NCBI GenBank assembly: GCA_903896925.1 | Contig: CAITZM010000175.1 | Coordinates: forward strand, 62,001-126,000 | Origin: an uncultured Lentisphaerota bacterium | Lineage (GTDB): Bacteria > Verrucomicrobiota > Kiritimatiellia > CAIQIC01 | Reading direction: 5' to 3' | DNA: 64,000 nucleotides | Part shown: piece by piece, positions 2 through 23,403 of the stretch | Layout: every line of letters begins with the position of its first letter | Position numbering within the stretch: the stretch's first letter is position 1 | Program-made: the position numbers and the translations under genes | Notes under the pieces: generated by a model | The model's input: the letters and a program-made list of their open reading frames with translations, nothing else | Told to the model about the DNA's origin: nothing | Databases searched by the model: none

Positions 2-3000
2 GTGAGCGCTGCCCTGCTCGACCTCAATGGGTTTGATCAAACGGTCGCGGGTGTGACGTCCGGCGCGGGCAGCAGCGGAGCCAAGGTGATCGGCAACTCG
101 GCGGGCGCTGGCGCCACCTTCACGGTCAGCAACTCCGACAACTATGTCTTCTTGGGCGGCTTCGGCGGCAATCTGAGCCTGGTCAAGGAGGGACCCGGCC
201 TGCTATCCATCGGCAACAGCGCGCACACGGGCAGCACCCTGATCAACAGCGGCATGTTGCAACTCGGCACCAACGGCGCCTTCGGCTCGCTCGGGCTGGG
301 GCCGGTGACGAATAGCGGCGTGTTGGCCTTCAACCGGTCCGACAGCTACACCGTGTTCAGCTCCATCACGGGCCCGGGTGTCTTGCTGCAGATGGGCAAT
401 GGCGTGACGCTCTTGAGTGGGCAGAACACCTTCACCGGCGGCCTCCTGATCACGAACGGCGAAGCCGGCGCGGTGCTGGACAGCGGCTGGGGTGCGGCAG
501 GCAACCTGATCAGCGTGAGCGGCGGCGCGCTCGCCGTCAATGGCACGACGATCCAGAGCATGGGACCGCACCCTCTGAACGCGGGTACCTTCAACGGCGG
601 AGTGGATGTATTCAGTCCTTATGGGGCCTTCGTCATCGCCACCAACCTGAGCGGCGGCAGCAGCTTGACCAAACTCGGCAAGGGCGTCCTGATCCTGCAG
701 GGTACGAACACCTATAACGGGGGCACGACCGTCAGCAACGGCACACTGCGCCTGCTGGCCGGCGGTGGCGACAACCTGCTGGCCGCGGACGGCGCGCTCA
801 ACCTGGTGGGCGGCACGCTTGATTTGGCGGGCAGCAGCCAGACAACGACCAGCCTGGTGTTGCAAGGCGGTAGCGTGCAGAACGGCAGCCTCACGGTCGC
901 CACCAGCAACCTGGTCCTGTCGGCGGGGATGGCCGCTGCTGCCCTGAACCTGCAGGGGAGCGCTCCGCTGGTCAAGATTGGCAGCGGGTATTTAGCGCTG
1001 CTGGGCAACAACACCTACAGCGGGGCGACCGTGTTGAGCAACGGCACGCTGGCGATTGTCAGCGATGCCAACATCGGCGGTTCGTCCGGCAGCACCATCA
1101 CGTTCGCGGGCGGCATCCTTGGTATCCTCGGCAATGCGCTGCCCAACCTCGACGGACACGACGTCAACTACAACACCTTCAACGGCGGGTTCGATATTGC
1201 CACGCCCGGCGTTGCCTTTACGCTGACCAACGCCATCAGTGACGGCGGCAGCCTCACCAAGGCGGGCCTGGGCACCTTGGTGCTGGCCGTAGCGAACAGC
1301 TATAGCGGGCCGACGATCATCAACGCGGGCACGCTGCAAGTGGACAACGGTGGGGCGACGGGGACGTTGGGCTCGGGCATCGTTACGAACAATGCCAGCC
1401 TGGTGTTCTTCCGGTCGGACAGCTATGGGGTAACCAATAACATCGTGGGCACCGGTGCCACCACGGTGCGCAGCGGCGTGCTGAACTACGGTGTCGGAGG
1501 CATCACGAACGGCCGGCTCTTCGTGGCCGACACGCCGGGCCTGAACGCAACGTTCAACCTGACCAGTGGCGTGGTGCGCATCACCCAGACCGCGAACAAT
1601 CAGTTCATCATTGGCAACGCCCCCAATGCGCTGGGCACCTTCAACATGAGCGGCGGCCTGCTGACGTCTTCCAATGAACTCTGGATCGCCGGTGGCGTGA
1701 GCAACAGCCGGGGCTTCTTCAATCTCACGGGCGGCTCGGTCGTGGTGAGCAACTGGACGGCTGTCGGCCGCGGTGCGGCGAACGGCTCGGTAGGCAACTA
1801 CGGCGAGTTGAACATCAGCGGCGGCGCGTGGAGCAACCAGGCGAATAACGGCATGACCATCGCCTCCTATGGCGGCAATACCGGCCGGGTGACGGTTACG
1901 GGTGGCAGTCTCTACGTCCAGAACGCGCTCTATGTGGGAGAAGGGAATGGCGCCGTGGCCACCGCGCCAGCGGTCGGTATGATGGTGATCGGGGGCGGCA
2001 CCGTTTATGCAGGCAATTCCCTGATGGTGGGGCAGAGCGCCGCCGGGATCGGCGCCCTCATTCAAACCGGCGGCGTTTTGAACGTGGCCGCCGGCGAGTT
2101 CGACATGGGCAATGCCAACGCGCTGAACTATGGCTTCTATATGAACGCGGGCGGCATCGCCTCGAACGCGAACTGGATGCAGGCCGGCCGCGGCGGCATG
2201 GGTGTCATCTATCTGGTCGGTGGCACCAACTTCATCAATGCCAGCAGCCAGGGTCTGTTGGCGGGTATGAGCGGGAGCGGCAGTTCCACCGGTGTGATCT
2301 ACATTGCGGGCGGTACGCTCCGCGACACGGGGCGTCTCGGCGTCGGCTGGGCTGGCAGCAGTCGCGCAGAAGTGACCATCGGAGGCAATTCCTCCGTCAT
2401 CATCGGCAGCGGCGGGGTGGAATTCAACCAGGCCAACACCACGATGTCGTTCTTGAACCTGAACGGCGGCACGCTTTCGACGTTGAATGTCTACAAGAAC
2501 GTGGCTGGCGGCTGGAGTGTGCTCAATCTCAATGGCGGTACGCTCCTGGCTCAGGGCAACCAGACCTTCATGGGGCCGGGCGCCGGTGGCGTGGGTGCAC
2601 TGGATGCTGCCTATGTATATGGTACTGGGGCGCTGATCGATTCCTCCAACTTCAACATCACCATTTCCCAGAACTTGCTGTCCCCGACGGGGCAAGGGGT
2701 GACGAGCATTCCTTGGAGCGGCTCGATGGTGGGTTATGTCGGTGCGCCCTATGTGGCGATCAGCGGCGGCGGCGGCACGGGCGCGACGGCGATAGCCCAG
2801 TTCGACTTCACCAGCGGTTCGGTGACGGGCATCCTGCTCACCAGCGCCGGGGTGGGGTATACGAGCACACCTACCGTGGCGCTGGTCGGTGGCGGTATTG
2901 CCAGCAACTACCTGGGCATAGCTTTCATCGGGGCCAACAACGCCGGAGCGGTGACCAAACAGGGTGGTGGGGCGCTGCTCTTGACGGGCACCAACACCTA

Positions 3001-6000
3001 TGCTGGCGGTTCGGTGATCAACAACGGCCTGCTGGTCTTCGCCTCGACCAACGCGATAGGCAGCGGCTTCGTCACCATCAATAATGGAGGCGCGCTGGGC
3101 GTGACTGGCTCCTATGGCAGTGCGTCGGCCTGGCTTGACAGCGGCAGGATCGCCACGAATTCCACCGGGGCCCTAGCGTTGGGCGCCGCCAACGCCGCCG
3201 AGGATATCAACTTCATGACGGCGGCCGGTGGTGTCTATAGCAATCTGTACGTCGGGGCGCTGTCGCCGGTGCTCTACTCCGGCGCGCTGTCCTTCTACAA
3301 TAATGATTATCGGCTGGGCGGGGGCGGCAGCACGTTGGCGCTAACCAACGATCTGGCCGGCAACACGCTGAACATCGGCCTGCCGGGCACCAGTGTGACC
3401 AACACGGTTGCGCTCAACGGTTTCCTCTCGTTTGTGGGCGGTATCGTGGTGAACAGCAACGCGGTTCTGAGCCTGGCCGGTCCGGCCCTCGGCACCATCA
3501 GCCTCACGAATGCCACCGTGCAGGTGCGTGGCGCGGCGGTGAACAGTCTGGCCCTCAACCCGGCCCTCGCCGGCAGCGTCACGTTCGACATCAACACGGC
3601 GGGCCACACCGTCACGCTGGGCGACAACCTGACAGCGGGTGGCCCCTTCACCAAGGCGGGTTCGGGGGTGTTGGCGCTCGGTGGTGCGAACTCATTCAGC
3701 AGCAATGTGACCGTAGCGGCGGGTGCGCTGCGAATCACCAGCAGCGATGCGCTTAATGGAACGGGCAGCAATGTCACGGTCGCCAGCGGCGCGGCGCTCC
3801 AGTTGCAGGGGGGCATCACCCCCGCGGCGGATGACCTGTTGACGTTGAACGGCGCCGGCGTGGCCAACGACGGCGCGCTGCGCAACATCGCCGGGAGCAA
3901 CACGTGGGCGGGTCCCATCACGCTGGGCAGTGCCTCGCGCGTCAATACGGACGCCGGTCTCCTGACGCTGTCCGGGCGCATCACCAACGGCACGAACCTG
4001 TTGACCGTCGGCGGGGTGGCTAACACGGTGATCAGCGGCCCGATTCTTGGCGGCACAGGCGGCCTGACCAAAGACGGCTCCGGCATCCTCACGCTGACCG
4101 GCAGCAACCTGTACACCGGCACCACGACCATCAGCGCGGGCGGTCTGGTGTTGGACTTCTCGCAGCCCGGCGCACCGCTCAACAACATCATCAACAACAC
4201 CGCCTTGGCGATGGGCTATAACGTGCTGGGCACGAACGCGTCGTTGCTGGTCATCGGGCAGGGGGCGGGCGTCACCACCCAGTCGTTCAACGGCGTGACG
4301 CTCAATCCGGGCAATAACTCCATCGTGGCCAGCAATTTTAATGGCGGCGGCACAACGGTTCTCAGGTTGGGCACGGTCACCCGCGCCACCGGCGGCGGTC
4401 TCCTTGACCTCACTCTGCCGGGCGGCAATGGCAGGATCACCACCACGAGCGCGACCAATACGGTTGGTATTTTTGACGCATGGGTGACGGTCAACAAGCA
4501 GGACTGGGCGGCGTTGAATGGCACGAGCTTCACCGCCTTTACCAACTACACCTTGGTCGATCCGTTCCTCAGGGTTATCCCTAGCCTGAACACGTACGCC
4601 GTCAAGGTGACGAGCGGGGTTGGCGTCACCAACTTCCTGGGGGTGGACCCCACCAGCATCAAGACCCTGTTGGTCAATGATCCGACCAAGAACCATGTCA
4701 TCGTCATGAGCGGTCAAACCCTGCGCATGGGTTCACCCGGTGCCATCATGCTGGCCAGCGGCTCCGGCGGTTTGACCGTGGGTACGAACGTCAACGATGG
4801 TTTTCTCACGGCGGGCAGCGATCTCACGCTGATCAATTATTCCACCAATACGCTCGTCATCAACTCTTCCTACACCAATGGGAGTTCGCTGACGATCAAT
4901 GGTGGTGGGCCGGTTGTTTTCAACGGCATCACTGCCAGCGCGGGTGCGACCTATCTCAATAATGGCGCGGTGAGGTTCAACAACCAGAACACCCTGACCG
5001 GTGCGGTCAATATCCGCGGTGGTACGGTGACCCTGTCCGGCACCAGCTTCAATACGTTGGGTGCGGTGACGCTTCAGGACAGCTCCACGTTGAACCTCAA
5101 CGGGCCGACAACCTTGGGGACGAACAGTATGATCGTGGGTTCGTTGGCAGGTGACCGTGCCACCGTCGTGATCGGCGCCAATGCGACGATGGCCAAGTTG
5201 TTGGTCGGTACTGTCAGCGGCGCGGCGGGCGCGGTCGTCCAGAACAGCGGCGCCGTACTCGCAGGTCCCGGAGTGGGCGGCGTGGATGTTTTAAGCCTGG
5301 GTAACGGCGGCTATGGTTATTACCAGCTGAACGGGGGCACGCTGCTCTCCGGGCAGTTTGCGCCGGGCGGTAGCGCGGCAGGTGGTACTGGCGTTTTCGA
5401 TCAATACGGCGGCGCGACGACGGTCAATGGGCAGTGGTTCATCTTGGGCTGGGGCGGCACGAGCCGGGGCGTGGTGAATCTGTTCAACGGTACGATGTCG
5501 TTCGTCACCAACCAGCAGCCTTTGACGTTGGGCTATACCGGCAACACCAATTTTGGCGCCATCAACCTGCTCGGCAGTTCGGTGGTCTTTGACACGACCG
5601 GTGGCACCAACGGTCTGCCGGTTGAAATGATGAGGACGGCCGGTAATTCGACCAGCGTGATCAACCTCAACAGCGGCACCTTGGAGGCCAATCAGATCAA
5701 GGCCAGCACAGCCGGTCTTTCACTGCTTAACTTCAATGGCGGCACGCTGCAGGTCAACGCCAGTTCGGTGTTCAGCAACACGTTCCTCACCGGTCTGACG
5801 GCGGCGACGATCTATTCCGGCGGAGCGACCCTGGACACGACGAACAACGCCAGCGTGACCATTCCGCAGAACCTCACCGGCCCGACCGGCTTCGGCTTGA
5901 CCGGCATTGCCTTGGCGAACAATGGCGCGGGCTATATCGGCGCGCCGGTGGTGGTGCTCACGGGCGGCAACGGCACGGGCGCCACGGCCATTGCACAGGT

Positions 6001-9000
6001 GGATCTGGGCAGCGGTCAGGTGACCAACCTGCTGATTACCAGCGCGGGTTCCGGCTATCTGCCCACGGATGCGCTGACGGTCCAGCTCCTCGGCGGCGGT
6101 TTCACGCGTGCGGCGACGCCCGGCACCTATCGCTGGGCGGCGAATGTCAACAGCGGCAGCCTGACGGTGAATGGCGGCGGCGTGCTGACGCTGACCGGCA
6201 CCAACTCCTATGGTGGCACCTCGATCGTCAACAGCGGCTCTCTGGTGTTCCAGCCCGCGTTGCTGACGACGAACAAGGTTGGCGGCCTTGGAGGCGAGGG
6301 CGCGGTTGTGCAGAACGGGCCCGGTGTGACCATCCTAGGTGGCGACAGCTCCACCTTCGCCGGGAGTGCGACGATCAATACGGGCACGCTGCAGTTCGCC
6401 ACGCTGAATTCGTTGCCGACCCATGCGCTCGGCGGTGTGCTGGTGACCAACCAAGGCGTGGCCGCCTTGGGTTTCACAGGCATTGAGGGCGCCAAGTCGT
6501 TGACCAATTTCAACACGACCTCGCCGGGTATCATCGCTTTCATGCCTGTCAGTGGCACGGATACGTTCAACTTCGCCGGGGCGGGTCTCTCCAATGCCTT
6601 TTTCGGGGGCCTGACCAGCGCCACGTTCGGCGGGACCTACACTCCCTATAACAATGCCTATCAGTTGACGGGCATCCGGGGCAACGCCCTGACCTTTACC
6701 AACGCCATCGGCGGCAGCAGTTCCGTCAGCATCGGTACGGGCTTCGGCGTCTCCTCCGGTCTGGTTGTGTTCACTGCGGCGAATAACACCTACAGCGGCC
6801 CGACGGTTATAGCTCCCAACAGCACCTTGCAAGCCGGCGCGGCTAATGTGATCGGCAGCCAATCCGCGGTGACGCTCAGCAATGGTGCGGTCTTCAACGT
6901 CGCCGGTTTCAACCAGTCACTCGGCTCGCTGGCCGGTCTCGGCAGCATCATCAACACCAATGCCAAGATGACCTTGACCGTCGGAGATAATGGTGCCAGC
7001 ACCCTGTTCGGCGGCACGATCAGCGGCAGCCAGGATCTGGTCAAGGCGGGCAGCGGCATCTTGAACCTGACGAACAGCAACTTCTACACGGGGTCGACCA
7101 TCGTCAATGGCGGCACGTTGCAACTGGCGCCGGCCCAGACCAACTATGCCGGGTTGTGGGAAACCTATACCAACGTGGCCAGCGTCTGGGCTCCGGTGGG
7201 CATGACCAAGCTGACAACCACCAGCTATCCGCGTTTTGCCGAAACCAACCTCGCCTCCATCGTGGGCACTCCGGCGTGGCCCAGTAACGCGCCACAAAAT
7301 GCCACCATGGGTTACCTCGGCTATGTCTACAACAATGCCGGCTCCAACGCCACGTGGACGTTTGCGGCCAACATAGACGACGGTTCCCAACTCTTGATTG
7401 ATGGCAGGCTGGTGCTGTCGTCCGCTGGCAACGCGACCGTGATGACCAATATCACACTCTCACCGGGGGCGCACTCGATCGACTATCGTATCCAGAATGG
7501 CACGGGCGGCTATGGCACCTACGGCCTCTTCGGCTCCGGTACCGGCATCGGCACCGGCGGCAGCATCGGATTTGGCTATGACCCGCTGGGACGTGGGCAA
7601 GCGGTCGCTGGGAACTACGTCATTCCGGCCGATCCGGGTAACGGCACCTTCTTCACCACGGCAGCCGGTGTGTTGCCCGCCGCCACGCCGCTCTATATCG
7701 CCACTGGCGCCACCGTGGACCTCAACGGCGCCGTCCAGAACATCGCGATGCTCTCCGACTACGCCGGTGGTGGCGGCCTCGTCACCAATACGGCGCTGGC
7801 GGCCAATGCGGTGCTCCAGATCGCCACGCTCGCCGGCAGCAACACTACCTTCAGCGGCAATATCAGCGACGCCTCCGAGTCCAACAACATCAGCCTGTGG
7901 ATCGGCGGTTCGGGCACCCAGGTCTTGGCTGGCACCAACAGCTATCACGGCGGCACGGTCATCTCCGGCGGCGTGCTGCAGTTTGCCCAGACCAGCGCCA
8001 TCTCGCCTTACAGCAACGTGCTGATCAATGCGGGTGGCACGCTCGCCAATGCCGGGGCCTACATCAATGTGAACGACTGGCTCAACAGCGGCAGCATCGC
8101 CAGCAATTCGGCCGGCAGCCTCGCGTTTACGACGGCGGCCAATCTGAGCGAAGCGGTCAACTTGGCGCTGGCGGGCGGCGGCCAGTACAGCAACCTGTAC
8201 CTGGGCGCCATTGGAAACATCACTTTCAACGGCACCGTGATCCCCGCGGCGGGCATCACGCGGCTCGGTGGCGGCGGCGGAAAATTGACCATCGCTAATC
8301 CCCTCGTCTCCGGCAGCGTGGCAATCGGTGGCGGTCTGGGCACGGTCGTGTTGTCCAATACCCTGAACACCTACACCAGCACGGTGCTCAACGCCGGCAT
8401 ATTGCAGGTCACCGCCGATGCCGCGCTGGGCACCGCGACCGCAGGGCAGACGAACATCACCTTCGCTCTGGGCGGTACGCTCCAGGCCGGCGCCCCCACT
8501 GTCGTGCTCGCGGCCACCCGCACCCTGTTGGTGACCAACGGGGTGCTCGGTACGCTCGACAACAACGGCAATTCTTTCACCATCAACGGGAACATTGTGG
8601 GCACCGGCACACTGGTTTCCACCGGCGCGGGCACCAACACGCTCGGCGGCCTGGCGAACACGGTGCAAGGCATCCAGGCGCGCAACGGCACGCTGATCTT
8701 CGCCCCGGGCAGTTCCAACAACATTGCCGGCGGCAACAGCACCAACATCTACGGCTTGCAAGTAGCACCGGTCACGGGTGACCGCGCGATCGTGCGCTTC
8801 AACCCGACCGCCGGCCAGACCAACATCATCCTTGGCACGCTGCGGGTGGGCAACGGCACCAACTCCGCCGGTGTGGTTTATCAGACCAGCGGCTTGGTCC
8901 TGCAAAACGGCGGCAACGCCAATCAGGACTTCGCCATTGGTTCCGGCGGCGGTTACGGCTACTACAAGTTGACGGGCGGCACGGTGGTGGGTAACCAGAT

Positions 9001-12000
9001 GGAGATCAGTTCGGTCAATACGGGCGCCGGCGGCGTCGGCGTCATGGATATCCTGGGTGGCACGGTGTCGCCGCAGCAGTACTTCATGATCGGCCGTTCA
9101 GCCAATGGCATCGGGGTGGTCACCGTGGCCAATGGCGGCGTGCTGAATGGAGCGGTCAATAACACCGCCGGGATCGCCTTCGGCTGGGACGGCAGTGCCA
9201 ACGGCTACGGCGTGCTCAATATTCTGAACGGCGGCCTGGTGAATGCGGGCATTGGTGGCAAGACGCTGGACCTCGGGGCCAATAGCGGGACCAACACCGG
9301 TATTGTCAACCTCAACCTGGGCGGTACGGCCATCGTGTCCCAGATCACCCGCAGCCAGGTGGGGACGGGTATCCTCAACTTCAACGGTGGCCTCCTGATC
9401 GCGAGCAACAACGCGAACGCCACGCTGATCAATAGCAACCTGTCGGGCGCCTACGTCTACCAGGGCGGGTTCAATATCTCCAACAATGTCAACAGCGCCG
9501 TGCTGCAGCCCTTGCTGGCGCCCACGGGGTACGGCGTCTCCGGTATCGGGCTGGCGGATGGTGGCACGAACTATCTTGGCGTGCCGGCGCTCCTGATCAC
9601 GGGCGGCAACGGCACGGGTGCCACGGCCATCGCGCAGATCAATGCGGCGGGCGTGATCACGAACATTCTGGTTACGAACTATGGCGTCGGCTATCTGCCG
9701 GGCGATGTGCTGACCGTCCAGGTGCTGGGCGGCGGTGCAAGCATCAACGGCCTGCCGGGTGTGGTGACTCTGGGCGCGAACGCCAGCGGCGGTCTGGTCA
9801 AGACAGGGCCAGGCATCCTGACGCTGGGCGGCAACAATACCTACACCGATCTCACGACCATTGTCGCCGGCCATCTCCAACTCGGCAGCGGTGGCACCTC
9901 CGGCTCCCTGGCCAACCCGAATGTAGTCTTCTCGAACACGGCGAGCTGGCTGGGCTTCAACCACAGCGACACGATCACCAACAGCCTCGTCTTGCAAACG
10001 CCCAACGGCAAACTTGCGGCCATCGTCCAGAATGGCAGCGGCATGCTGGTGCTGACAAACACCGTGCAGCAATTCAATGCGGCGGCCATCAGCAACGGTC
10101 TGATGTTCTTTGCCTCGGCCGCTGCGGTGCCGACGAATGCGACCGGCCGCAATAGCATCACCCTGGCCACCGGCGGTGGCGTGCTCGTGACGAACCTCTA
10201 CGGCAGCATCAACGGCTGGCTGAACAGCGGGATGATCACCAACATCCCCGGCGGCGGCATGCTGGCGTTGACGACCGGCGTCAACACCGAGAACGTCAAC
10301 TGGGTGGCGGCAAACGGCACCGTCTACAGCAACCAGTACATCGGCGTCGCCCCGGGCCATGTGGCGACCTTCCTGGGCTCGCTGACGCCGGTCGGCACCA
10401 ACTATCTCGTGGGTGGCGGCGGCGGCACCCTGGTCATCGGCAACGTCAACGCGTTCTCGGACGCGAATGCGTTGACCAACCGCAGCGTCGCCTTCGGCGC
10501 GGGTGGCCCGACCGGCGCCGTGTACGTGGTCGGCCCGCAGAACTACACCGGTGGCACGACGCTCACGAACACCATGGTTTCCATCAGCGCGGACAACAAC
10601 CTCGGGTATGGCAATCTCACCATCAATTCGGGTGGCGTGTTGCAGATCATGAATGCGCCGAATTTTGCGACCGTCAAGCAACTGGCGTTCAATGCGAACG
10701 GCACCATCAATCTGGGCCTGGACATCGCAACCGGCTCGACGGCCACGCTGTTCGGTGCGGTCAGCGTCACGGGCAATGGCAGCCAGCAATTTTACAAGTG
10801 GGGCGGCGGCACGCTGATCTTCAACGGCAACAATGTCACGGTCGGGGCTACCGGCCAGCGCTGGGCGTTCTCCGCCGGCACGACCATCGTGGACAGCAAT
10901 GCCGTGGTGAATTCCGCCTCGTCCTTCCAGATCGTCGGCTACAACAATGGCGACAACGCTGCGCTGCTGTTGCGCAACAACGGCGTATACATCACCAGCG
11001 GTAACGGCGCCAACAACCTGATTCTGGCCGACGCCGTCGGCAGCGCGGGCACGATGACTGTGCAGGACAACGCGCAGTTCCTGCAAAACGGGGGCGGCGG
11101 AACGTACATCGGCAACGGCGGCACGGGCATGCTCACGGTGAACGGCGGCAATGTGCTGCTGGGTGCCACGGTCCTAGGTTTCGCCGCCTCGGGTGTAGGC
11201 ACGATCAATGTGAATGGCGGCTCGCTGAGCGTAGGCAACCTGACCATCGGCAACGCCACGGGCGCGTTGGCCACGAACAACCTCAACGGCGGGGTGGAAC
11301 TCATCCGCGGCACCTATATCACGAAGGTCGGCGGCACGGCGGTCTTCAACTTCAACGGCGGCACGCTGCGCGCGGGCAACAACTTCGTCTTCTCGAATTT
11401 GTTCAATGTGGCGACGTTGAACGGCTTCTCCACCCTCGACAGCAGCAACTTCACGGTCACGCTGAATCAGGCCTTCACCGGCACCGGCTCGCTGACGAAG
11501 CAGGGCAGCGGCACGCTGCTGGTCAACAGCCCGAGCAACACCTTTGCGAACATCCAGGACAACGCGGGCCAGATCCAGTTCGCGGCCACGAGCGGGATGA
11601 CGCCAGGCCGGACGCTGACGATCAATGCCGGGGCTGCGGCGGGCTATTCCAGCGCCAATGCGAACGGTCTGGATCAGGGCTTCCTGCTGCGCGTGGCATC
11701 GAACTCGGTGGGCACGGTGGCGCTGGGCAGCAACAGCACCAGCAACCTCGACTTCAGCTTGGCCGGCGCCAACCTGACGAACGTCAGTCTGGGCGCCATC
11801 GGCACGACGCCGTGGACCTACAGCGGCGTACTCACGAATTTCGGCAGCACCTACCGTCTCGGCGGCGGCGGCGGCACGCTGGTGATCACCAACAACCTGA
11901 CGCCGGGCCCGGGCACCAACCTCGTCGCCTTTGGCAACGGCGGCCAAGGCACGTTGATCCTCACCGGAACGAACACGTGGACGAGCACGACCGTCAGCGG

Positions 12001-15000
12001 CGGCGTGGTCCGCTATGGCAGCACGAACGCGATGGGCCTGAACGTCACGGTGGCGTCGGGTGGCGCCATTGCCAATAATGGCGCGCTGGATACGAACCTC
12101 TTCGCTCAGCTCAACACCGGTTCTGCGGGCGCCTTTGTGTTCGTGGCGAACAACACGAACCCTGTGGCCGGCAACATCAATCTGGGCGCTTATCCGAACC
12201 TTAGCATCGGTGCGGCCGGCGGCTCGTGGACCAACGATGGCGCCATCCTGCCCTACGGCACCACCTACCAGCTCGGCGGCGGCGGCGGCACCCTGGTGCT
12301 CACCAACAGCGCGCTGAACGGCGCAGGTACGAATTTGGTCGCGTTCAGCGGCAGCAACGCTGGCACGCTTGTCCTGGCCGGCACGAACACCTTTGACGGC
12401 GGCACGACGATCGGTGCGTTGGGTAACGTCATCGCCACGACCATGGGCTTGGGCACGGGTGCGGCCACCAACAACGGTACGCTGACCTTCAATATGACTT
12501 CGACGGCTGGCGCTACCACGAACGGCGTGTTGCAAAACCTGCTCAGCGGCACGGGCAATCTGGTGCTCAACAACCAGATGCACGCGACTCAGTTGATCAT
12601 CACGAATAGCAACCCGTTCAGCGGTCCGGTCTATATCAACAGCGGCATGCTGTCGCTCTCGAACCAGACCTCGGGCCAGACCTCGTTGGCCAGCACGTCC
12701 ATCAATCTGGGCAACGGTATCTCGAATGCCTGGCTGCGGCTTTATGCCAACCAGCAGCTCAATCCGGCTGCCATCCTGAACGTGACCGGCGGCACCGCCA
12801 ATTCCAAGTTTGAGATGAACGGGTTTACCCAGACCGTGGCCGCCATCAACAGCGCCGGTGCGCTGGCCATCATCCAGAATATGGAAGTTGGCGGCTCGGG
12901 CTCGGGCCTGTTGATCGTTTCCAACGACACGGTGAACAGCCTGTGGGCCGGCTATATGCGCAACATGACCGGCACGCTGGCCTTGAACAAGGCGGGCGCG
13001 GCGCAGCTGACCTTGGTTGGCAATCAGATCGCCTACACCGGGGCGACCGTGGTGAATGGCGGCACTCTGCTGCTGAGCAACACCACGATCTTTGCCAGTC
13101 CCGTGACGGTCAACGGCGGCCAGTTGTTGCTGGCGACTCCGGGCAATACCACGGTGATGAGCCAGATGGTGACCAATAATGCCAACAACGGCCTCGGTTT
13201 CTCCGGCGGCACAACCTTCAGCATTGGCGGCCTCGCGGGCAACGGCAGCATCACGCTTTGGAGCCAGACGGGGGGCGGAGTGACGTTGAATGTCGGCGGC
13301 GGCAATTCGAATACGACCTACAGTGGCTCGCTCGCTGACGTCGGTCCGGGTAATTACTATCAAGGCAACCTGGTCAAGACGGGTTCCGGAACCCTGACGC
13401 TGACCGGCACGAACACCTATCATGGCTACACCCTGCTCAATGCGGGCATCCTGCAGGCCGATGCAGGCCTGGGCCTCTCGCCCTATGCCAACGTGAACTT
13501 CAACGGCGGCAGCCTGGCTTCCGTCCCCGGCTTGATCACCAATGCGGTGGGCCTTGGCGCCGGGCAGTTCAATATCCTCAACGGCGGCTTCAGCGCCGTC
13601 GGCACGCCGACCATCGTGTCGCTCGGTGGCGTGGGCAGTCCGTCGGGCCTGGCTTGGGGTACACCGTCGTTCTCGCCGACGACCTTCATGCTCAACGAAA
13701 CCAACGCCAACAACACGCTGACGCTCCTCAATAACATCGATCTGTTCGGCAACAACGCGGCGGTCGGCGCCAACGCGACCAATCCCAACGCCCTGGCGGT
13801 CATCAGCGGCGTGATCAGCGACAGCCTCGGGACCGGCAGCCTCATCAAGCGCGGCGGCGGAACGCTGGTGCTGGCGGGCGCGAACACGTATACGAACGGC
13901 ACCTTCATCGCGGGCGGCAATTTGGCCATGACCAACGACCTGCTCGGTGTGCCCGGCACTCCGCTGTTCCTCACGAACAACGGCGCCTTCGAGGCCAGCG
14001 GTAACTTCACGCTGAACAATCGCGCCGTGTTGGTGCAGACCGGCGGCGGCAAGATTAATGTGGATGCCGGGCTCACGTTGACCATCACGAACAATATTCT
14101 GGCGGCCGGTGGCGCGCTGACCAAGGTCGGCTCGGGCACGCTGCTGCTCACGGCAGGCCCGACGCGGAGCCAGCTGACCAATGGTCTCAATGCGAACGCG
14201 GGCGTGCTGCTGATGACCAACAACAATCTGTGGCTCAACAACAGCGCCGCCAACATTGGGCAGAATGTCGGCGATGCCGGCACGGTGATCTTGGGCGATA
14301 ATGCGGTCTGGGCCTCGACCAACATGCCTAATGGAACCGGTGGCCCCATTCTCGCCGTGGGCAATGCCGGTCGGGGTACGCTGATTATCCAAGGCAATGC
14401 CAACATTACCAACCGGCTTTACGTCGGCAACGCGGCGGGCAGCGCCGGCGCGGTCTATCAGCGCAGCGGCACCTCGGTCTGGTGGAACGGCACCGCGTCC
14501 GACGGCAAGATGGGCGTCAACGGGTATGGCTATTACGAGCTGGCTGGCGGCTCGATGATGCAGGCGGGTTTCTCCCAGATCGGCGCCAACCTGACCGGTG
14601 TCGGCGTGGTGGCTCAACTGGGCGGCAGCTTCGTCCAGCAGACGACCCTCGGTGGGCAGCTGGCCCTCAGTCGTGGCGGCGTTGGCGTCTATAACCTGCT
14701 CGGCGGCACCTTCGTTTCTTCGAATACGGTGAACCTGGGTGAAGCCAGCGATAACGCTTTGACGAACGGCGTGGCCATCTTCAACATGCTGGGCGGCTCG
14801 GCGCGGGTCGTTGGCAACATGAGCATGGCCAATCGCACCAATATGACCATGGCTGCGATCAACCTGGACGGCGGAGTGCTGACGGTCAACCAGATCCAGC
14901 GCGGCGTGACCTCCAATTCGCCGACGTTCGTCAACTTCAACGGCGGCACGCTGCAGGCGCGCCAGAACGGCGCCTTGTTCGGCACCGGCACCGCCGCGCC

Positions 15001-18000
15001 CGATGGCACCTATATCTATGCAAACGGCGGCACGCTCGACGCCAGCAACTTCATGGTAAGCGTGCCGGTCAACCTGCAGGCGCCGCAGGGCCAGGGCGTG
15101 ACGAGCATATCCCTGGGAGCACCCACGCTCGCCGGCTATGTCGGCTCGCCCTACGTCCAGATCTCCGGCGGCGGCGGCACCGGCGCGACGGCCTATGCGC
15201 AGTTCGATTCCGCCCAGGGGCTCGTCACCGGCATCGTCATGACCAGCTATGGCTACGGCTACACCGCCGACCCGACGGTCACGCTGCTGGGCAACACCAC
15301 GAACAGCTTGGGCACGATGACCCGCGCGGCCAACACCAGCGGCAGCCTGACGGTGAACGGCACCACCAACGGCGTGCTGTTCCTCTCCGGCGTGAACACC
15401 TATGCCGGCGGTACGATCGTCAATGGTGGCAACCTGCTCTTCACGGGCGCCTCGGCGCTGCCCGCCAGCGGCAACGTGCTGGTCAACTTCGCCGGCAGCC
15501 TGGGCGTGACGAACGCCAGTTCCCCGTTCACCAGCGCCGCCGCCTGGCTGACCAGCGGGCGCATCAGCACCCTTTCCACCGGCACGCTCTCGCTGGCGTA
15601 TAACTCGGCGGCCGGCGAGACACTTGACTTTAACGCCATGGGCTTCGACAGCCTTTCGCTGGGCGCGGTCGCCGGCATGACGGTGACGAACAGCGCCAAC
15701 ATCGTGCCCAACAGCCTGACGTACCGGCTGGGCGGCGGGTGGGGCACGCTGGTCATCACGAACAACCTGCTGTTGGGTAACTCGCTCAACGCGTTCGGCA
15801 GCGGGTCGGGCGGCAAGCTGATCCTCGGTGGCAGCAACTATTTCCCCAACGGTGTCACCATCAATCCCATCGGCGTGGTGCAGGCGAATTCGCCCTACGC
15901 GTTGGGTGGCATGACAAACATTGTGGTGCCCTATGGCGCCACGCTGGCCAACGGCTTCGCGATGGATAACGCCTTCCTGGGCACGATCAGCAGCCTCTCG
16001 TCCGGCACGCTGGCGCTGGCGGCGAGCACCCCCAATCCGCTCGATTTCAATACGCCGGGGTTGCCCTCGGTCAGCTTGGGCGCGGTGGGGACGGTGACCA
16101 ACAACAGCAGCCTGATAACTCCGTACGCGGGTGTCTATCGCTTGGGTGGCGGCTGGGGCACGTTGGTGCTCACCAACAATGGCTTGACCGGTGCCGGCCG
16201 TAGTGTCGTCGCCTTCGACAGCGGCTCGGGCGGCTCCCTGGTGCTGGGCGGGACGAATGACTATGCTGGCGGCACATGGATTGGCGCGCTCGGCACGGCG
16301 GCGGTTTCCACCGTAAGCCTTGGCAGCGGGGCGGTCACCAACAACGGCGTGTTGATGTTCTCCCAGACAGCGAGCGGGACCAACGCCAATAGTATCGGCG
16401 GGACGGGTGTCTTGATGTTCACCAACACGGGTTTGATTGCGCTGACCGGCCTCAACACCTACAGCGGCGGGACCGTGGTCACCACCAACAGCTGGCTGCA
16501 TATCAACACCCCCAATGCGCTGGGCGTGGGCAGTCTGACCCTCACCAACAGCGGCCTGCTTCAGTTCAGCGGTGGGCTTACCATCACCAATGCCGTGACG
16601 ATCTATGGCGGCGATGGTGCGGGCAAGCAGAGCAATTTCCGCGGCAGCCTGCAAAGCACCAATGGCAACAACGTTTGGGCCGGCCTCATCACCCTCAGCA
16701 CGGGTAGTGGCCGGGTTGATGTGGAATCCGATCAACTGCGGGTGGTCGGCGGCGTCGCCGGCACGAGCAGCCTCATTCTTCAGCCGCAAACCGGGGCCAA
16801 TCTGATCGTGGATACAACGCCGATTCTGCTGCCGGGCCAGACGGTGACGTTCACGGGCGGCGGCACGAACTGGCTCAACGTCGGCAGCAATAACTTCGCC
16901 AATGCCAATTTCAACTTCGGCAGCACTGTGCTCAAGCTCGGTCTGGACAACGCCCTGCCGACCGGCGTCAACATGACCATCGGTGGCAACAACTCGGGCG
17001 ACACGAGCAGTCCCCAGTTCTGGCTGAACGGCTATAATCAGACGATCAGCAACCTGACGGTGGCCTGCTCCAATCAGATCAGCCTCAACACGATCAACGT
17101 GGGCACCAACACCTTGACGGTCAACGGCAACATGACCGTGGGCTCGACGCTCTCCAACAGCACCACCCGGTTGGCGGTGACCGGCTCGGGCGCGCTGATC
17201 GTCAACAAGGTCGGCGGTATCATCCAGATCGGCAATAATTCGGCCGACAACGGCAACACGGTGGGTAACCAGGGCAACCGGGCGACAAACGATATGAGCG
17301 CACTTGGCACGTTCGTTGCCAATCTGGGCAGCACCGGCCGGTTCATCATCGGCGATCCCAATGTGCAGGGTAACGCCCAAAACGACGCTGGCGACCGGTC
17401 CACGGTGATCCTGGCCACCAACAGCACGATCGTCGCCGGGGCGCTCAATATCGGTGACAATAACCAGTTCTCCTCCCTGCAGACGTTGCGGTTGGGTGCT
17501 GGCGTCAACATCATCAATGCCAGCACAGTCACCGTGGGCGCAGCGATGGGCGGCCGGTCGTATGGTTTGCTGCAGTTCAATGGCGCGACCGGTTCGCTGG
17601 CCTTGTCCAACACGGTGGGTGGTCGCGCCGAAATGGTGGTGGCCAGCTCAACGCCCGGTGTGAGTACGGGGGCCGCCATCACGGGCACCGTGAACCTGGT
17701 CAGTCATCCGGTCGACCTCTACCTGGGCGACTTGCTGTTGGGCAATGCGCTGCCCACAGCCTTGGGCAATAACAGCGGTGACCGGCTCGGCTTCTTCTCG
17801 TTTGACTCCGGTACCTTGGATGTGACGAACATCCTGATGGGCTCACGCGCGGGCACGGTGATTGTGAACGCCAACTCCTCCTATGGGTATTTGACGATCA
17901 GTGGCGGCGTGGCGCGTATCGGCCAGATCGCCATGGCGACCAACTACAACTGGTTTGTCAGCGCAGGGTCGAACAACAGCGGCAAGGCCAATGCCTATGT

Positions 18001-19759
18001 GAACCTGCTCGGGGGCAGCGTGACGGTCAGCAACGGCATCACGCGTGGTCTGGGGGGCGGATCCAACGGCATTGCCCAGGTCAACCTCGCGGGCGCGTCG
18101 CTCGACATGAACGGCAGCGCCATCGGCGGCGCCGGCCTGCTGTACGGCGTGTCGTTCAACGCCAGCAACGGCGTGTTGCAGAATCTTGGCCAGCTCAACG
18201 GCGGCACCACACCGTTGGTCAAGGCGGGCAACGGCACCTTGCTGGTGCTGGGCAACAACACCTACAGCGGCGGCACGCTGGTCAGCGCCGGTCTCCTGCA
18301 ACTGGGCGATGGCGTGGCCAACAACGGCTCCGTGCAGGGCCCTATCACGAACAATGCCCAGCTGGCGTTCGCCAATCCGTTCGACCAGACCTTCGGAGGC
18401 ATCGTCAGCGGCCCGGGCAGCCTGACCAAGTCCGGCAGCGGCCAGTTGACCCTGTCCGCCATGAACACGTTCACCGGCGCCACGACCAACAACGCCGGCA
18501 CGCTGCGGCTCGGCGACGGCGTGGCGCACAACGGCACGGTGGGCGGCAACATCGTGAACAACTCGACGCTGCAGTTCGCGAACCCGAAAGCCCAGACCTT
18601 TGGCGGCACGATCAGCGGTTCGGGCGGACTGGTAAAGACGGGCGCCGGTGTGCTCACGCTGGCGGCGGTCAACTCCTATGCGGGCAACACCTTCATCAGC
18701 AACGGCACGGTGCGGCTCGGTCTGGCTAATGCGCTGCCGGCGACTGCGGTCGCTGCAGGCCCGGCCGGGACCCTTGACCTGGCTGGTTTCAACCAGGTGC
18801 TGACCGGCGTGGATGGCTATCAGGGCGTCATCACCAACTCGTCTGTGGCCAGCACGTTGACGGTGAGCCTGAGCACCACGCAGAACTTCGGCGGCACGCT
18901 GGCCGGTCCGGCCAACTTCACCCTGCAGGGCGGCGGCCAGCTGAACCTGTCCGGGCACACCAGCGCGAGCTACTCGGGCAACGTCCTCGTCTCCAATGCC
19001 ACCTTGATGGTCTCGGGTTCACTGACCACCGGCGGCCTGATCGGTGTCTATAATGGCGGCACGGTGGGCGGCACGGGCCAGCTGGGCGCTGTGCAGGTGT
19101 ACAGCGGCGGTATCTACAGTCCCGGCTTGAGCGGCCCCGGCGCCCAACTCGCCCACAGCCTCACCCTCGATGGCGGCCAGTTCCGCTCGGAGATCGTGAC
19201 GACCAACAACTTCGGCCACTTGACCCTCACCTCGGGCCTGACCCTCGTGACCGGCACGACCAACTACCTGCATCTCGCCCTGCAAAATTATATGTTGCAG
19301 GATGGCGCCAGCTATCTGCTCGTCCAGGACGATTCCAGCACGCCTTGGAATGGCAGCGTGTTTACCCTCGATGATCCGCTGGGTCCGAACAACGGACTGG
19401 TCCTGACCAACGGCACCACTTTCCTGGCCTTGGGCGGCGCCGCGGGCACGAATACGTTCACCCTCGCCTATGATTTCGACTCCATCAGCGGCACGACCGG
19501 CAGCGGCAACGATCTCCTGTTGCAGCTCGTCCCGGCACCGGCACCGGCCAATCTACAGCCGCTGAGCAGCGCCGCCCCGCCAAGCGACAGCCCGGAAGCG
19601 GCGTCGGCCGGTCTCCAGGCGCTGAGCGGCGCCGCCCCGCTGAACGTCATCCCGGAGCCGGCACCGGTCCAGCTGCTGCTGATCTTCGGTGCGGCGTACT
19701 GCGTGCGCCGCTGCCTGGGCCGGAAGCACAGTCACAGCGACAAAGGGACGCAGATATGA
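2..19759 (+). CDS. Giant autotransporter-associated beta-strand repeat (PATR) protein with C-terminal PEP-CTERM sorting signal; 5' end outside the window
   Basis: 6585-aa open frame reaching the window edge. Dozens of repeats of the type 'GxGxLxLxGxNTYxGGTxxxxGxLxxG'. C-terminus 'NVIPEPAPVQLLLIFGAAYCVRRCLGRK' (PEP motif, TM helix, Arg-rich end). No signal peptide at the apparent start, so the gene is truncated. Confidence 0.93.
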   Translation: MSAALLDLNGFDQTVAGVTSGAGSSGAKVIGNSAGAGATFTVSNSDNYVFLGGFGGNLSLVKEGPGLLSIGNSAHTGSTLINSGMLQLGTNGAFGSLGLGPVTNSGVLAFNRSDSYTVFSSITGPGVLLQMGNGVTLLSGQNTFTGGLLITNGEAGAVLDSGWGAAGNLISVSGGALAVNGTTIQSMGPHPLNAGTFNGGVDVFSPYGAFVIATNLSGGSSLTKLGKGVLILQGTNTYNGGTTVSNGTLRLLAGGGDNLLAADGALNLVGGTLDLAGSSQTTTSLVLQGGSVQNGSLTVATSNLVLSAGMAAAALNLQGSAPLVKIGSGYLALLGNNTYSGATVLSNGTLAIVSDANIGGSSGSTITFAGGILGILGNALPNLDGHDVNYNTFNGGFDIATPGVAFTLTNAISDGGSLTKAGLGTLVLAVANSYSGPTIINAGTLQVDNGGATGTLGSGIVTNNASLVFFRSDSYGVTNNIVGTGATTVRSGVLNYGVGGITNGRLFVADTPGLNATFNLTSGVVRITQTANNQFIIGNAPNALGTFNMSGGLLTSSNELWIAGGVSNSRGFFNLTGGSVVVSNWTAVGRGAANGSVGNYGELNISGGAWSNQANNGMTIASYGGNTGRVTVTGGSLYVQNALYVGEGNGAVATAPAVGMMVIGGGTVYAGNSLMVGQSAAGIGALIQTGGVLNVAAGEFDMGNANALNYGFYMNAGGIASNANWMQAGRGGMGVIYLVGGTNFINASSQGLLAGMSGSGSSTGVIYIAGGTLRDTGRLGVGWAGSSRAEVTIGGNSSVIIGSGGVEFNQANTTMSFLNLNGGTLSTLNVYKNVAGGWSVLNLNGGTLLAQGNQTFMGPGAGGVGALDAAYVYGTGALIDSSNFNITISQNLLSPTGQGVTSIPWSGSMVGYVGAPYVAISGGGGTGATAIAQFDFTSGSVTGILLTSAGVGYTSTPTVALVGGGIASNYLGIAFIGANNAGAVTKQGGGALLLTGTNTYAGGSVINNGLLVFASTNAIGSGFVTINNGGALGVTGSYGSASAWLDSGRIATNSTGALALGAANAAEDINFMTAAGGVYSNLYVGALSPVLYSGALSFYNNDYRLGGGGSTLALTNDLAGNTLNIGLPGTSVTNTVALNGFLSFVGGIVVNSNAVLSLAGPALGTISLTNATVQVRGAAVNSLALNPALAGSVTFDINTAGHTVTLGDNLTAGGPFTKAGSGVLALGGANSFSSNVTVAAGALRITSSDALNGTGSNVTVASGAALQLQGGITPAADDLLTLNGAGVANDGALRNIAGSNTWAGPITLGSASRVNTDAGLLTLSGRITNGTNLLTVGGVANTVISGPILGGTGGLTKDGSGILTLTGSNLYTGTTTISAGGLVLDFSQPGAPLNNIINNTALAMGYNVLGTNASLLVIGQGAGVTTQSFNGVTLNPGNNSIVASNFNGGGTTVLRLGTVTRATGGGLLDLTLPGGNGRITTTSATNTVGIFDAWVTVNKQDWAALNGTSFTAFTNYTLVDPFLRVIPSLNTYAVKVTSGVGVTNFLGVDPTSIKTLLVNDPTKNHVIVMSGQTLRMGSPGAIMLASGSGGLTVGTNVNDGFLTAGSDLTLINYSTNTLVINSSYTNGSSLTINGGGPVVFNGITASAGATYLNNGAVRFNNQNTLTGAVNIRGGTVTLSGTSFNTLGAVTLQDSSTLNLNGPTTLGTNSMIVGSLAGDRATVVIGANATMAKLLVGTVSGAAGAVVQNSGAVLAGPGVGGVDVLSLGNGGYGYYQLNGGTLLSGQFAPGGSAAGGTGVFDQYGGATTVNGQWFILGWGGTSRGVVNLFNGTMSFVTNQQPLTLGYTGNTNFGAINLLGSSVVFDTTGGTNGLPVEMMRTAGNSTSVINLNSGTLEANQIKASTAGLSLLNFNGGTLQVNASSVFSNTFLTGLTAATIYSGGATLDTTNNASVTIPQNLTGPTGFGLTGIALANNGAGYIGAPVVVLTGGNGTGATAIAQVDLGSGQVTNLLITSAGSGYLPTDALTVQLLGGGFTRAATPGTYRWAANVNSGSLTVNGGGVLTLTGTNSYGGTSIVNSGSLVFQPALLTTNKVGGLGGEGAVVQNGPGVTILGGDSSTFAGSATINTGTLQFATLNSLPTHALGGVLVTNQGVAALGFTGIEGAKSLTNFNTTSPGIIAFMPVSGTDTFNFAGAGLSNAFFGGLTSATFGGTYTPYNNAYQLTGIRGNALTFTNAIGGSSSVSIGTGFGVSSGLVVFTAANNTYSGPTVIAPNSTLQAGAANVIGSQSAVTLSNGAVFNVAGFNQSLGSLAGLGSIINTNAKMTLTVGDNGASTLFGGTISGSQDLVKAGSGILNLTNSNFYTGSTIVNGGTLQLAPAQTNYAGLWETYTNVASVWAPVGMTKLTTTSYPRFAETNLASIVGTPAWPSNAPQNATMGYLGYVYNNAGSNATWTFAANIDDGSQLLIDGRLVLSSAGNATVMTNITLSPGAHSIDYRIQNGTGGYGTYGLFGSGTGIGTGGSIGFGYDPLGRGQAVAGNYVIPADPGNGTFFTTAAGVLPAATPLYIATGATVDLNGAVQNIAMLSDYAGGGGLVTNTALAANAVLQIATLAGSNTTFSGNISDASESNNISLWIGGSGTQVLAGTNSYHGGTVISGGVLQFAQTSAISPYSNVLINAGGTLANAGAYINVNDWLNSGSIASNSAGSLAFTTAANLSEAVNLALAGGGQYSNLYLGAIGNITFNGTVIPAAGITRLGGGGGKLTIANPLVSGSVAIGGGLGTVVLSNTLNTYTSTVLNAGILQVTADAALGTATAGQTNITFALGGTLQAGAPTVVLAATRTLLVTNGVLGTLDNNGNSFTINGNIVGTGTLVSTGAGTNTLGGLANTVQGIQARNGTLIFAPGSSNNIAGGNSTNIYGLQVAPVTGDRAIVRFNPTAGQTNIILGTLRVGNGTNSAGVVYQTSGLVLQNGGNANQDFAIGSGGGYGYYKLTGGTVVGNQMEISSVNTGAGGVGVMDILGGTVSPQQYFMIGRSANGIGVVTVANGGVLNGAVNNTAGIAFGWDGSANGYGVLNILNGGLVNAGIGGKTLDLGANSGTNTGIVNLNLGGTAIVSQITRSQVGTGILNFNGGLLIASNNANATLINSNLSGAYVYQGGFNISNNVNSAVLQPLLAPTGYGVSGIGLADGGTNYLGVPALLITGGNGTGATAIAQINAAGVITNILVTNYGVGYLPGDVLTVQVLGGGASINGLPGVVTLGANASGGLVKTGPGILTLGGNNTYTDLTTIVAGHLQLGSGGTSGSLANPNVVFSNTASWLGFNHSDTITNSLVLQTPNGKLAAIVQNGSGMLVLTNTVQQFNAAAISNGLMFFASAAAVPTNATGRNSITLATGGGVLVTNLYGSINGWLNSGMITNIPGGGMLALTTGVNTENVNWVAANGTVYSNQYIGVAPGHVATFLGSLTPVGTNYLVGGGGGTLVIGNVNAFSDANALTNRSVAFGAGGPTGAVYVVGPQNYTGGTTLTNTMVSISADNNLGYGNLTINSGGVLQIMNAPNFATVKQLAFNANGTINLGLDIATGSTATLFGAVSVTGNGSQQFYKWGGGTLIFNGNNVTVGATGQRWAFSAGTTIVDSNAVVNSASSFQIVGYNNGDNAALLLRNNGVYITSGNGANNLILADAVGSAGTMTVQDNAQFLQNGGGGTYIGNGGTGMLTVNGGNVLLGATVLGFAASGVGTINVNGGSLSVGNLTIGNATGALATNNLNGGVELIRGTYITKVGGTAVFNFNGGTLRAGNNFVFSNLFNVATLNGFSTLDSSNFTVTLNQAFTGTGSLTKQGSGTLLVNSPSNTFANIQDNAGQIQFAATSGMTPGRTLTINAGAAAGYSSANANGLDQGFLLRVASNSVGTVALGSNSTSNLDFSLAGANLTNVSLGAIGTTPWTYSGVLTNFGSTYRLGGGGGTLVITNNLTPGPGTNLVAFGNGGQGTLILTGTNTWTSTTVSGGVVRYGSTNAMGLNVTVASGGAIANNGALDTNLFAQLNTGSAGAFVFVANNTNPVAGNINLGAYPNLSIGAAGGSWTNDGAILPYGTTYQLGGGGGTLVLTNSALNGAGTNLVAFSGSNAGTLVLAGTNTFDGGTTIGALGNVIATTMGLGTGAATNNGTLTFNMTSTAGATTNGVLQNLLSGTGNLVLNNQMHATQLIITNSNPFSGPVYINSGMLSLSNQTSGQTSLASTSINLGNGISNAWLRLYANQQLNPAAILNVTGGTANSKFEMNGFTQTVAAINSAGALAIIQNMEVGGSGSGLLIVSNDTVNSLWAGYMRNMTGTLALNKAGAAQLTLVGNQIAYTGATVVNGGTLLLSNTTIFASPVTVNGGQLLLATPGNTTVMSQMVTNNANNGLGFSGGTTFSIGGLAGNGSITLWSQTGGGVTLNVGGGNSNTTYSGSLADVGPGNYYQGNLVKTGSGTLTLTGTNTYHGYTLLNAGILQADAGLGLSPYANVNFNGGSLASVPGLITNAVGLGAGQFNILNGGFSAVGTPTIVSLGGVGSPSGLAWGTPSFSPTTFMLNETNANNTLTLLNNIDLFGNNAAVGANATNPNALAVISGVISDSLGTGSLIKRGGGTLVLAGANTYTNGTFIAGGNLAMTNDLLGVPGTPLFLTNNGAFEASGNFTLNNRAVLVQTGGGKINVDAGLTLTITNNILAAGGALTKVGSGTLLLTAGPTRSQLTNGLNANAGVLLMTNNNLWLNNSAANIGQNVGDAGTVILGDNAVWASTNMPNGTGGPILAVGNAGRGTLIIQGNANITNRLYVGNAAGSAGAVYQRSGTSVWWNGTASDGKMGVNGYGYYELAGGSMMQAGFSQIGANLTGVGVVAQLGGSFVQQTTLGGQLALSRGGVGVYNLLGGTFVSSNTVNLGEASDNALTNGVAIFNMLGGSARVVGNMSMANRTNMTMAAINLDGGVLTVNQIQRGVTSNSPTFVNFNGGTLQARQNGALFGTGTAAPDGTYIYANGGTLDASNFMVSVPVNLQAPQGQGVTSISLGAPTLAGYVGSPYVQISGGGGTGATAYAQFDSAQGLVTGIVMTSYGYGYTADPTVTLLGNTTNSLGTMTRAANTSGSLTVNGTTNGVLFLSGVNTYAGGTIVNGGNLLFTGASALPASGNVLVNFAGSLGVTNASSPFTSAAAWLTSGRISTLSTGTLSLAYNSAAGETLDFNAMGFDSLSLGAVAGMTVTNSANIVPNSLTYRLGGGWGTLVITNNLLLGNSLNAFGSGSGGKLILGGSNYFPNGVTINPIGVVQANSPYALGGMTNIVVPYGATLANGFAMDNAFLGTISSLSSGTLALAASTPNPLDFNTPGLPSVSLGAVGTVTNNSSLITPYAGVYRLGGGWGTLVLTNNGLTGAGRSVVAFDSGSGGSLVLGGTNDYAGGTWIGALGTAAVSTVSLGSGAVTNNGVLMFSQTASGTNANSIGGTGVLMFTNTGLIALTGLNTYSGGTVVTTNSWLHINTPNALGVGSLTLTNSGLLQFSGGLTITNAVTIYGGDGAGKQSNFRGSLQSTNGNNVWAGLITLSTGSGRVDVESDQLRVVGGVAGTSSLILQPQTGANLIVDTTPILLPGQTVTFTGGGTNWLNVGSNNFANANFNFGSTVLKLGLDNALPTGVNMTIGGNNSGDTSSPQFWLNGYNQTISNLTVACSNQISLNTINVGTNTLTVNGNMTVGSTLSNSTTRLAVTGSGALIVNKVGGIIQIGNNSADNGNTVGNQGNRATNDMSALGTFVANLGSTGRFIIGDPNVQGNAQNDAGDRSTVILATNSTIVAGALNIGDNNQFSSLQTLRLGAGVNIINASTVTVGAAMGGRSYGLLQFNGATGSLALSNTVGGRAEMVVASSTPGVSTGAAITGTVNLVSHPVDLYLGDLLLGNALPTALGNNSGDRLGFFSFDSGTLDVTNILMGSRAGTVIVNANSSYGYLTISGGVARIGQIAMATNYNWFVSAGSNNSGKANAYVNLLGGSVTVSNGITRGLGGGSNGIAQVNLAGASLDMNGSAIGGAGLLYGVSFNASNGVLQNLGQLNGGTTPLVKAGNGTLLVLGNNTYSGGTLVSAGLLQLGDGVANNGSVQGPITNNAQLAFANPFDQTFGGIVSGPGSLTKSGSGQLTLSAMNTFTGATTNNAGTLRLGDGVAHNGTVGGNIVNNSTLQFANPKAQTFGGTISGSGGLVKTGAGVLTLAAVNSYAGNTFISNGTVRLGLANALPATAVAAGPAGTLDLAGFNQVLTGVDGYQGVITNSSVASTLTVSLSTTQNFGGTLAGPANFTLQGGGQLNLSGHTSASYSGNVLVSNATLMVSGSLTTGGLIGVYNGGTVGGTGQLGAVQVYSGGIYSPGLSGPGAQLAHSLTLDGGQFRSEIVTTNNFGHLTLTSGLTLVTGTTNYLHLALQNYMLQDGASYLLVQDDSSTPWNGSVFTLDDPLGPNNGLVLTNGTTFLALGGAAGTNTFTLAYDFDSISGTTGSGNDLLLQLVPAPAPANLQPLSSAAPPSDSPEAASAGLQALSGAAPLNVIPEPAPVQLLLIFGAAYCVRRCLGRKHSHSDKGTQI
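19531..19665 (+). repeat. 60-bp (20-aa) degenerate tandem repeat covering the PEP-CTERM linker
   Basis: Units begin at 19531, 19591 and (partial) 19651. Translations: VPAPAPANLQPLSSAAPPSD / SPEAASAGLQALSGAAPLNV / IPEPAPVQLLL. 'gctgagcRgcgccgccccgc' recurs exactly 60 nt apart. Confidence 0.8.
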
Positions 19760-23301: not shown

Positions 23302-23403
23302 TGTGCGCACTCGACAGCGGCTGCCCGTGGCCTGTAGCTCGGGGCCGGAGTTGCCGGCCTGATTGGCGTTGAATCAAAGAGGTTCGAAGCCTATACTGCG
23401 GGC

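Follow-up and report, generated by a model that had tools for sequence, protein, structure and literature searches.

A lake-dwelling member of the Verrucomicrobia/Lentisphaerae group encodes a 7,636-aa protein, probably a fibrous component of the surface or matrix whose sorting depends on a PEP-CTERM/exosortase system. That an exosortase processes it and that it is displayed at the surface are inferred from the family to which it belongs. The argument draws on the complete reading frame, on the repeats and predicted fold of the body, on a C-terminal end common to many proteins of the same genome, and on the export genes of the host.

Results

Frame and start of the giant gene

The window, i.e., the whole 64,000-nt stretch analyzed, corresponds to G000:C175:62001-126000 in a 7.22-Mb host genome (191 contigs, 94.75% complete, 0.64% contamination). 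The portion of the giant gene inside the window is an open frame on the plus strand (2..19759), whose TGA ends at 19759. The first-pass annotation had concluded that this frame, longer than 19.7 kb and running off the window, belongs to a still larger protein, and the upstream contig proved it right. On the same contig (G000:C175), the frame continues to a TGA at contig 58825, and its first ATG lies at contig 58849 (window -3151), with AAGTAAGG just 5' of it. The whole gene spans window -3151 to 19759 (G000:C175:58849-81759, plus strand) and specifies 7,636 aa, not 6,585, in a single unbroken frame. The start codons form an ATGATG at contig 58849/58852 with AAGTAAGGCGACG ahead of them. The N-terminus, MMNIHRKMVRACSVLLGMVLTVQAQ, is a Sec signal peptide upstream of the window (MNIHRKMVRACSVLLGMVLTVQAQ, by inspection) and is followed by TNFVWTNAVGGNWN, a typical beginning for PATR proteins of this host. 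Since GC3 is 0.78-0.89 in each 500-codon block and the dN/dS ratio to its paralogues is about 0.55, the frame is coding. An RpoN-type promoter 5' of the gene, sought by eye only, was rejected for its wrong spacing.

PATR repeats, solenoid body, and GTGATA domains

The PATR repeats claimed in the first-pass annotation were confirmed by the TIGR02601 profile (NCBIfam), which matched 20 stretches in one half of the giant (E 1.2e-60) and 11 in the other (E 8.5e-30), 31 in total. Pfam PF12951 found 15 and 8 stretches, and a PATR model trained on the genome found 36 repeats. These form clusters separated by PATR-free intervals that reach about 700 aa; five repeats lie at 176..1343 on the plus strand (aa 1110-1140, 1179-1205, 1272-1303, 1373-1404, and 1468-1499), and the last cluster lies at 18212..19015 on the same strand (aa 7122-7153, 7191-7222, 7260-7291, and 7356-7389). 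A stretch resembling PA14, noticed by eye in the first half, was discarded, as it lacked Pfam support.

The suggested beta-solenoid was also borne out, as both segments submitted to AlphaFold were modeled in this fold, with moderate confidence (pLDDT 66-70). The first, a PATR-free stretch with its flanks (aa 1671-2110; 1859..3178, plus strand), was modeled from 8 related sequences as a regular solenoid with rungs of roughly 25-29 aa, interrupted by the first GTGATA domain (pTM 0.77; pLDDT 70 on average and 77-92 in most blocks outside the insert). A PDB fold search with this model returned no significant match. The inserted domain itself (2687..2941, plus strand), which follows the pattern GYxGxPxVxxxGGxGTGATAxAxx...VTxxxxTSxGxGYxxxPxVxLxGG, is poorly folded in the model (pLDDT about 30). 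It occurs four times in the giant, at aa 1976, 3042, 4255, and 6110 (window about 2774, 5972, 9611, and 15176), and again in the other giants of the host. Its patterns also match short segments in Proteobacteria, Flavobacteriales, WPS-2, and other groups, and no Pfam name was found for it; the domain may be a mobile module.

The C-terminal end

The solenoid ends in a region of the autotransporter passenger type (18926..19528, plus strand) that partly matches the passengers EprS, fusolisin, and ShdA and is common to PATR/PEP-CTERM proteins of the host ranging from 790 to 7,636 aa. By sequence, the C-terminal body matches the solved passengers 8e7f (E 1e-11), 5ke1 (E 1.9e-6), and 8axg (E 9.4e-6). 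The AlphaFold model of this segment shows a beta-solenoid, then a disordered linker, and a single helix immediately C-terminal to the PEP box; its best PDB fold matches are the SepA and pertactin passengers (E about 2e-4), which are partial (TM values of 0.14-0.26 and about 0.2-0.35). Pfam and NCBIfam profile searches detected no C-terminal barrel (PF03797/TIGR01414) in the giant, and Pfam gave no match to a PF18883-type autochaperone. The first-pass claim that a PEP-CTERM tail takes the place of the barrel is thus upheld as to the missing barrel.

The linker preceding the tail (19530..19649, plus strand) comprises 40 proline/alanine-rich residues predicted to be disordered (pLDDT <50). It consists of two tandem 60-nt units, a third, partial unit being the PEP box itself, and it is found in the giant only, being missing from eight other aligned proteins. 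The tail (19646..19726, plus strand) comprises VIPEPAP (PEP codons at 19652-19660), a hydrophobic helix, and RRCLGRK, the complete C-terminus reading VIPEPAPVQLLLIFGAAYCVRRCLGRKHSHSDKGTQI. The last 537 aa of the giant can be aligned with eight other PATR proteins of the host, with an invariant PEP; the alignment of the tails is gap-free across the PEP box and the greater part of the helix.

Nonetheless, the curated models TIGR02595 and PF07589 do not match the giant's tail, TIGR02595 not even at E<=1, whereas in the same alignment TIGR02595 matches the tails of all eight other proteins and PF07589 matches seven of them. Because TIGR02595 gave no match on this tail alone, a genome-specific model was built from 15 other tails of the host, leaving out that of the giant, which scored 28.1 bits against it (best of 2,000 shuffles, 7.4). 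The PEP-CTERM signal read in the first-pass annotation therefore stands as to its letters and its likeness to the host's own tails, but not as to the curated profile.

The TIGR02595 failure could be a sign of weakened exosortase recognition. At the extreme of such drift, exosortases would no longer recognize the tail at all, leaving the giant nonfunctional or simply held in the inner membrane through its C-terminal helix. The profile failure that sets this tail apart within the alignment, the duplicated linker, and the remains of a decayed PATR/PEP-CTERM gene on the same contig, whose tail is similar, would all fit this scenario. We nevertheless deem it unlikely, given that the PEP box, the hydrophobic stretch, and the arginines are all retained, that the tail scores as stated against those of the host, that 23 kb of frame contain no stop, and that the family is under purifying selection.

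Exosortases and export genes of the host

The first-pass annotation proposed searching the genome for an exosortase, and two were found above the TIGR02602 cut-off (E 1.5e-45 and 1.2e-41), so the genome does not lack the enzyme. One, on contig C188, adjoins an EpsI-like protein and a WbaP-type EPS glycosyltransferase and has, by inspection, the PCSGLR, NCARI, and YH motifs expected of exosortases; the other, on C32, adjoins a WecG/TagA-type glycosyltransferase. Both stay below the cut-offs of named subtypes (e.g., XrtA). Exosortases were also found in 12 of 12 relatives tested. Elsewhere, the host genome contains 17 TIGR02595 matches and three Wza-type polysaccharide exporters (PF02563).

The sole PF03797 match in the genome is a stand-alone barrel of 441 aa on contig C13, without PATR repeats. 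This protein (G000:C13:115694-117019; L080:9694-11019) has a signal peptide and almost no passenger. Such a separate barrel might carry the giant across the outer membrane in the manner of a split autotransporter, and the barrel is complete while the giant retains PATR repeats and a passenger-type C-terminal region. This arrangement is nonetheless improbable: the C13 barrel is unlinked to any PATR gene seen, about 15 PATR proteins would depend on it alone, and these bear sorting tails of their own.

Paralogues and integrity of the assembly

The host encodes 15 PATR-bearing proteins of at least 790 aa, a count that leaves out a frame on C166 starting like an anti-sigma factor. Thirteen of them have their stop inside a contig, and 12 of these 13 end in a PEP-CTERM-type tail, the exception being C117:89624-95479. 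The combination of PATR and PEP-CTERM, which the first-pass annotation had presented as an exception, is instead the rule among the complete PATR proteins of this host and is common in other Verrucomicrobiota and in some Planctomycetes. Fourteen of the host's PATR proteins add up to 49,925 aa, equivalent to 2.1% of the genome.

Two further giants run off contig ends, one on C187 with no fewer than 7,785 aa and one on C33 with no fewer than 7,051 aa. Both are collinear with the giant, with about 45% identity in BLAST alignments over 3,939 and 4,761 columns, respectively; by aligned codons, identity is 51% over 3,599 and 4,333 positions, with dN/dS of 0.54-0.55. This suggests, from sequence comparison, an ancient duplication of a gene that was already giant. 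The assembly chimera contemplated in the first-pass annotation left no sign and is ruled out for practical purposes by uniform GC3 and the collinear giant paralogues. That the giant is a plain type Va autotransporter deprived of its barrel by loss or misassembly (chimera or truncation) is hardly credible, even though PATR repeats usually occur in autotransporters and the assembly breaks two other giants at contig ends, because the gene lies in the interior of a 156-kb contig and has uniform GC3, its paralogues are collinear over most of the length, and twelve PATR proteins of the host, as well as congeners, share the same ending.

The assembly breaks within giant PATR genes at the start of C187 and the end of C33, and short-read assemblies will undercount such giants. 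C118 and C124 were considered as the missing ends of broken giants and rejected, their tails being of another protein kind. The start of C135 holds an orphan 89-aa PEP-CTERM tail that fits the giant PATR family and is not joined to the broken giants. Within the window, 58731-59220 is a decayed PATR/PEP-CTERM gene, in which PATR-type sequence in one frame gives way, after a shift of frame and what looks like an internal deletion, to GGGNDILLTVIPEPASVNLLVMMGAAYCLRRRLLRKRSRM*; the tail of this remnant is similar to that of the giant.

Distribution beyond the genome

The shared C-terminal module is present in five of six genomes of the host's family; elsewhere in the class and phylum, matches are weak and confined to few genomes (10/390). 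A search for related loci, made with the solenoid alignment, found homologous solenoid segments of congeners in frames of 2,111-4,770 aa. PATR proteins bearing tails of the PEP-CTERM type are also found outside the genus, in a Verrucomicrobiaceae metagenome-assembled genome (MAG) (L178; 5,257 aa, 21 PATR), Chthoniobacter flavus (L156; 1,169 aa), Verrucomicrobium sp. BvORR106 (L159; 2,483 aa), a Lentisphaerae MAG (L128), and Planctomycetes (L145, L170, and L175). Three proteins of the same set (L154, L138, and L169) have a barrel-like or different tail. The giant is a very large member of a widespread architecture, not a new system. This statement relies on our genome searches, since a search of the literature accessible to us for PATR together with PEP-CTERM found no paper.

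Downstream genes

The gene downstream of the giant (19756..23301, plus strand) overlaps its stop by 4 nt (ATGA) and is probably cotranslated with it. It encodes a secreted protein of 1,181 aa with 7 GloVer repeats, 6 InlB-B-like repeats, and FG-GAP, without PEP-CTERM. The next gene (23404..26163, plus strand) specifies 919 aa with a cyclophilin-like peptidyl-prolyl isomerase domain (aa 213-379) and an FG-GAP-like C-terminus, and its product is perhaps a folding helper for the giant. Both secreted proteins (window 19756-26163) have in common an FG-GAP-like C-terminus of the form ...WFMNSNGTARAASYWWGTG.WKLKA.G, a third copy of which lies at C175:38274-40289. Farther along, the minus-strand gene at window 60143-63454 and L079:14959-18000 match the alpha subunit of hydrazine synthase weakly and in part; both proteins are probably beta-propellers.

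Discussion

As a probable exosortase substrate, the giant would be exported by Sec and retained in the inner membrane by its PEP-CTERM tail. An exosortase would then cleave at the PEP box and transfer the new C-terminus to another molecule. The chain would subsequently pass the outer membrane, probably unfolded and probably together with exopolysaccharide, and fold outside the cell into a long adhesive or structural fiber of the cell coat or biofilm. Taking about 7,500 aa, with about 26 aa and 0.48 nm per rung, we estimate that the folded solenoid would measure roughly 140 nm. Unfolded transit is favored because this length far exceeds the width of the periplasm. A bolder extension, which we advance only tentatively, is that barrel-less PATR/PEP-CTERM giants take a route across the outer membrane that differs from type V secretion, in which unfolded transit, possibly coupled to exopolysaccharide export, is driven by PATR folding outside, much as in autotransporters. 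If true, Verrucomicrobiota and Planctomycetes would have a separate export route for giant solenoids.

Zoogloea and Aquincola form flocs by means of PEP-CTERM proteins. Where PEP-CTERM proteins are encoded, exosortase, EPS genes, and an outer membrane are found as well (Haft et al. 2006, PMC1569441), and nine such proteins have been detected by mass spectrometry in Akkermansia (PMC4960237). The exosortase CrtB is required for biofilm, and the outer-membrane route of PEP-CTERM proteins has been stated as unclear (PMC12188702). Proteins of this class are needed for flocs and biofilms (PMC12188702), and a solenoid of 7,636 residues sharpens the question of how they cross the outer membrane. The interest of the giant thus lies in its scale and in this step rather than in a new system. 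Its family deploys autotransporter-type passengers without a barrel, and its size series, which extends from 790 to over 7,700 aa and has a single shared C-terminal module, is suited to tests in cultured relatives such as Chthoniobacter or Verrucomicrobium.

Among known systems, the giant resembles PEP-CTERM/exosortase substrates (TIGR02595, PF07589) in its Sec signal, its PEP box followed by a hydrophobic helix and a basic tail, and its Thr/Asn/Ser/Gly-rich body, in a host with exosortase and EPS genes and many substrates per genome. It departs from them in its far larger size, its PATR beta-helix, a tail below the curated model, and the extra 40-aa linker. With type Va passengers bearing PATR (ShdA, Ssp/EprS, fusolisin, pertactin, and antigen 43), it shares these repeats and the passenger-type C-terminal end, but it has a PEP-CTERM tail instead of the C-terminal 12-strand barrel. 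The proteins L178, L159, and L156 of other Verrucomicrobiota have the same architecture and homologous solenoid segments, although they are shorter and differ in body composition. Finally, the giant surface proteins of Omnitrophota, Giant1-5 of Apilactobacillus (PMC12863079), and those of a huge-protein survey (PMC11573180) are comparable in size class and likely surface role but differ from the giant in domains and anchoring.
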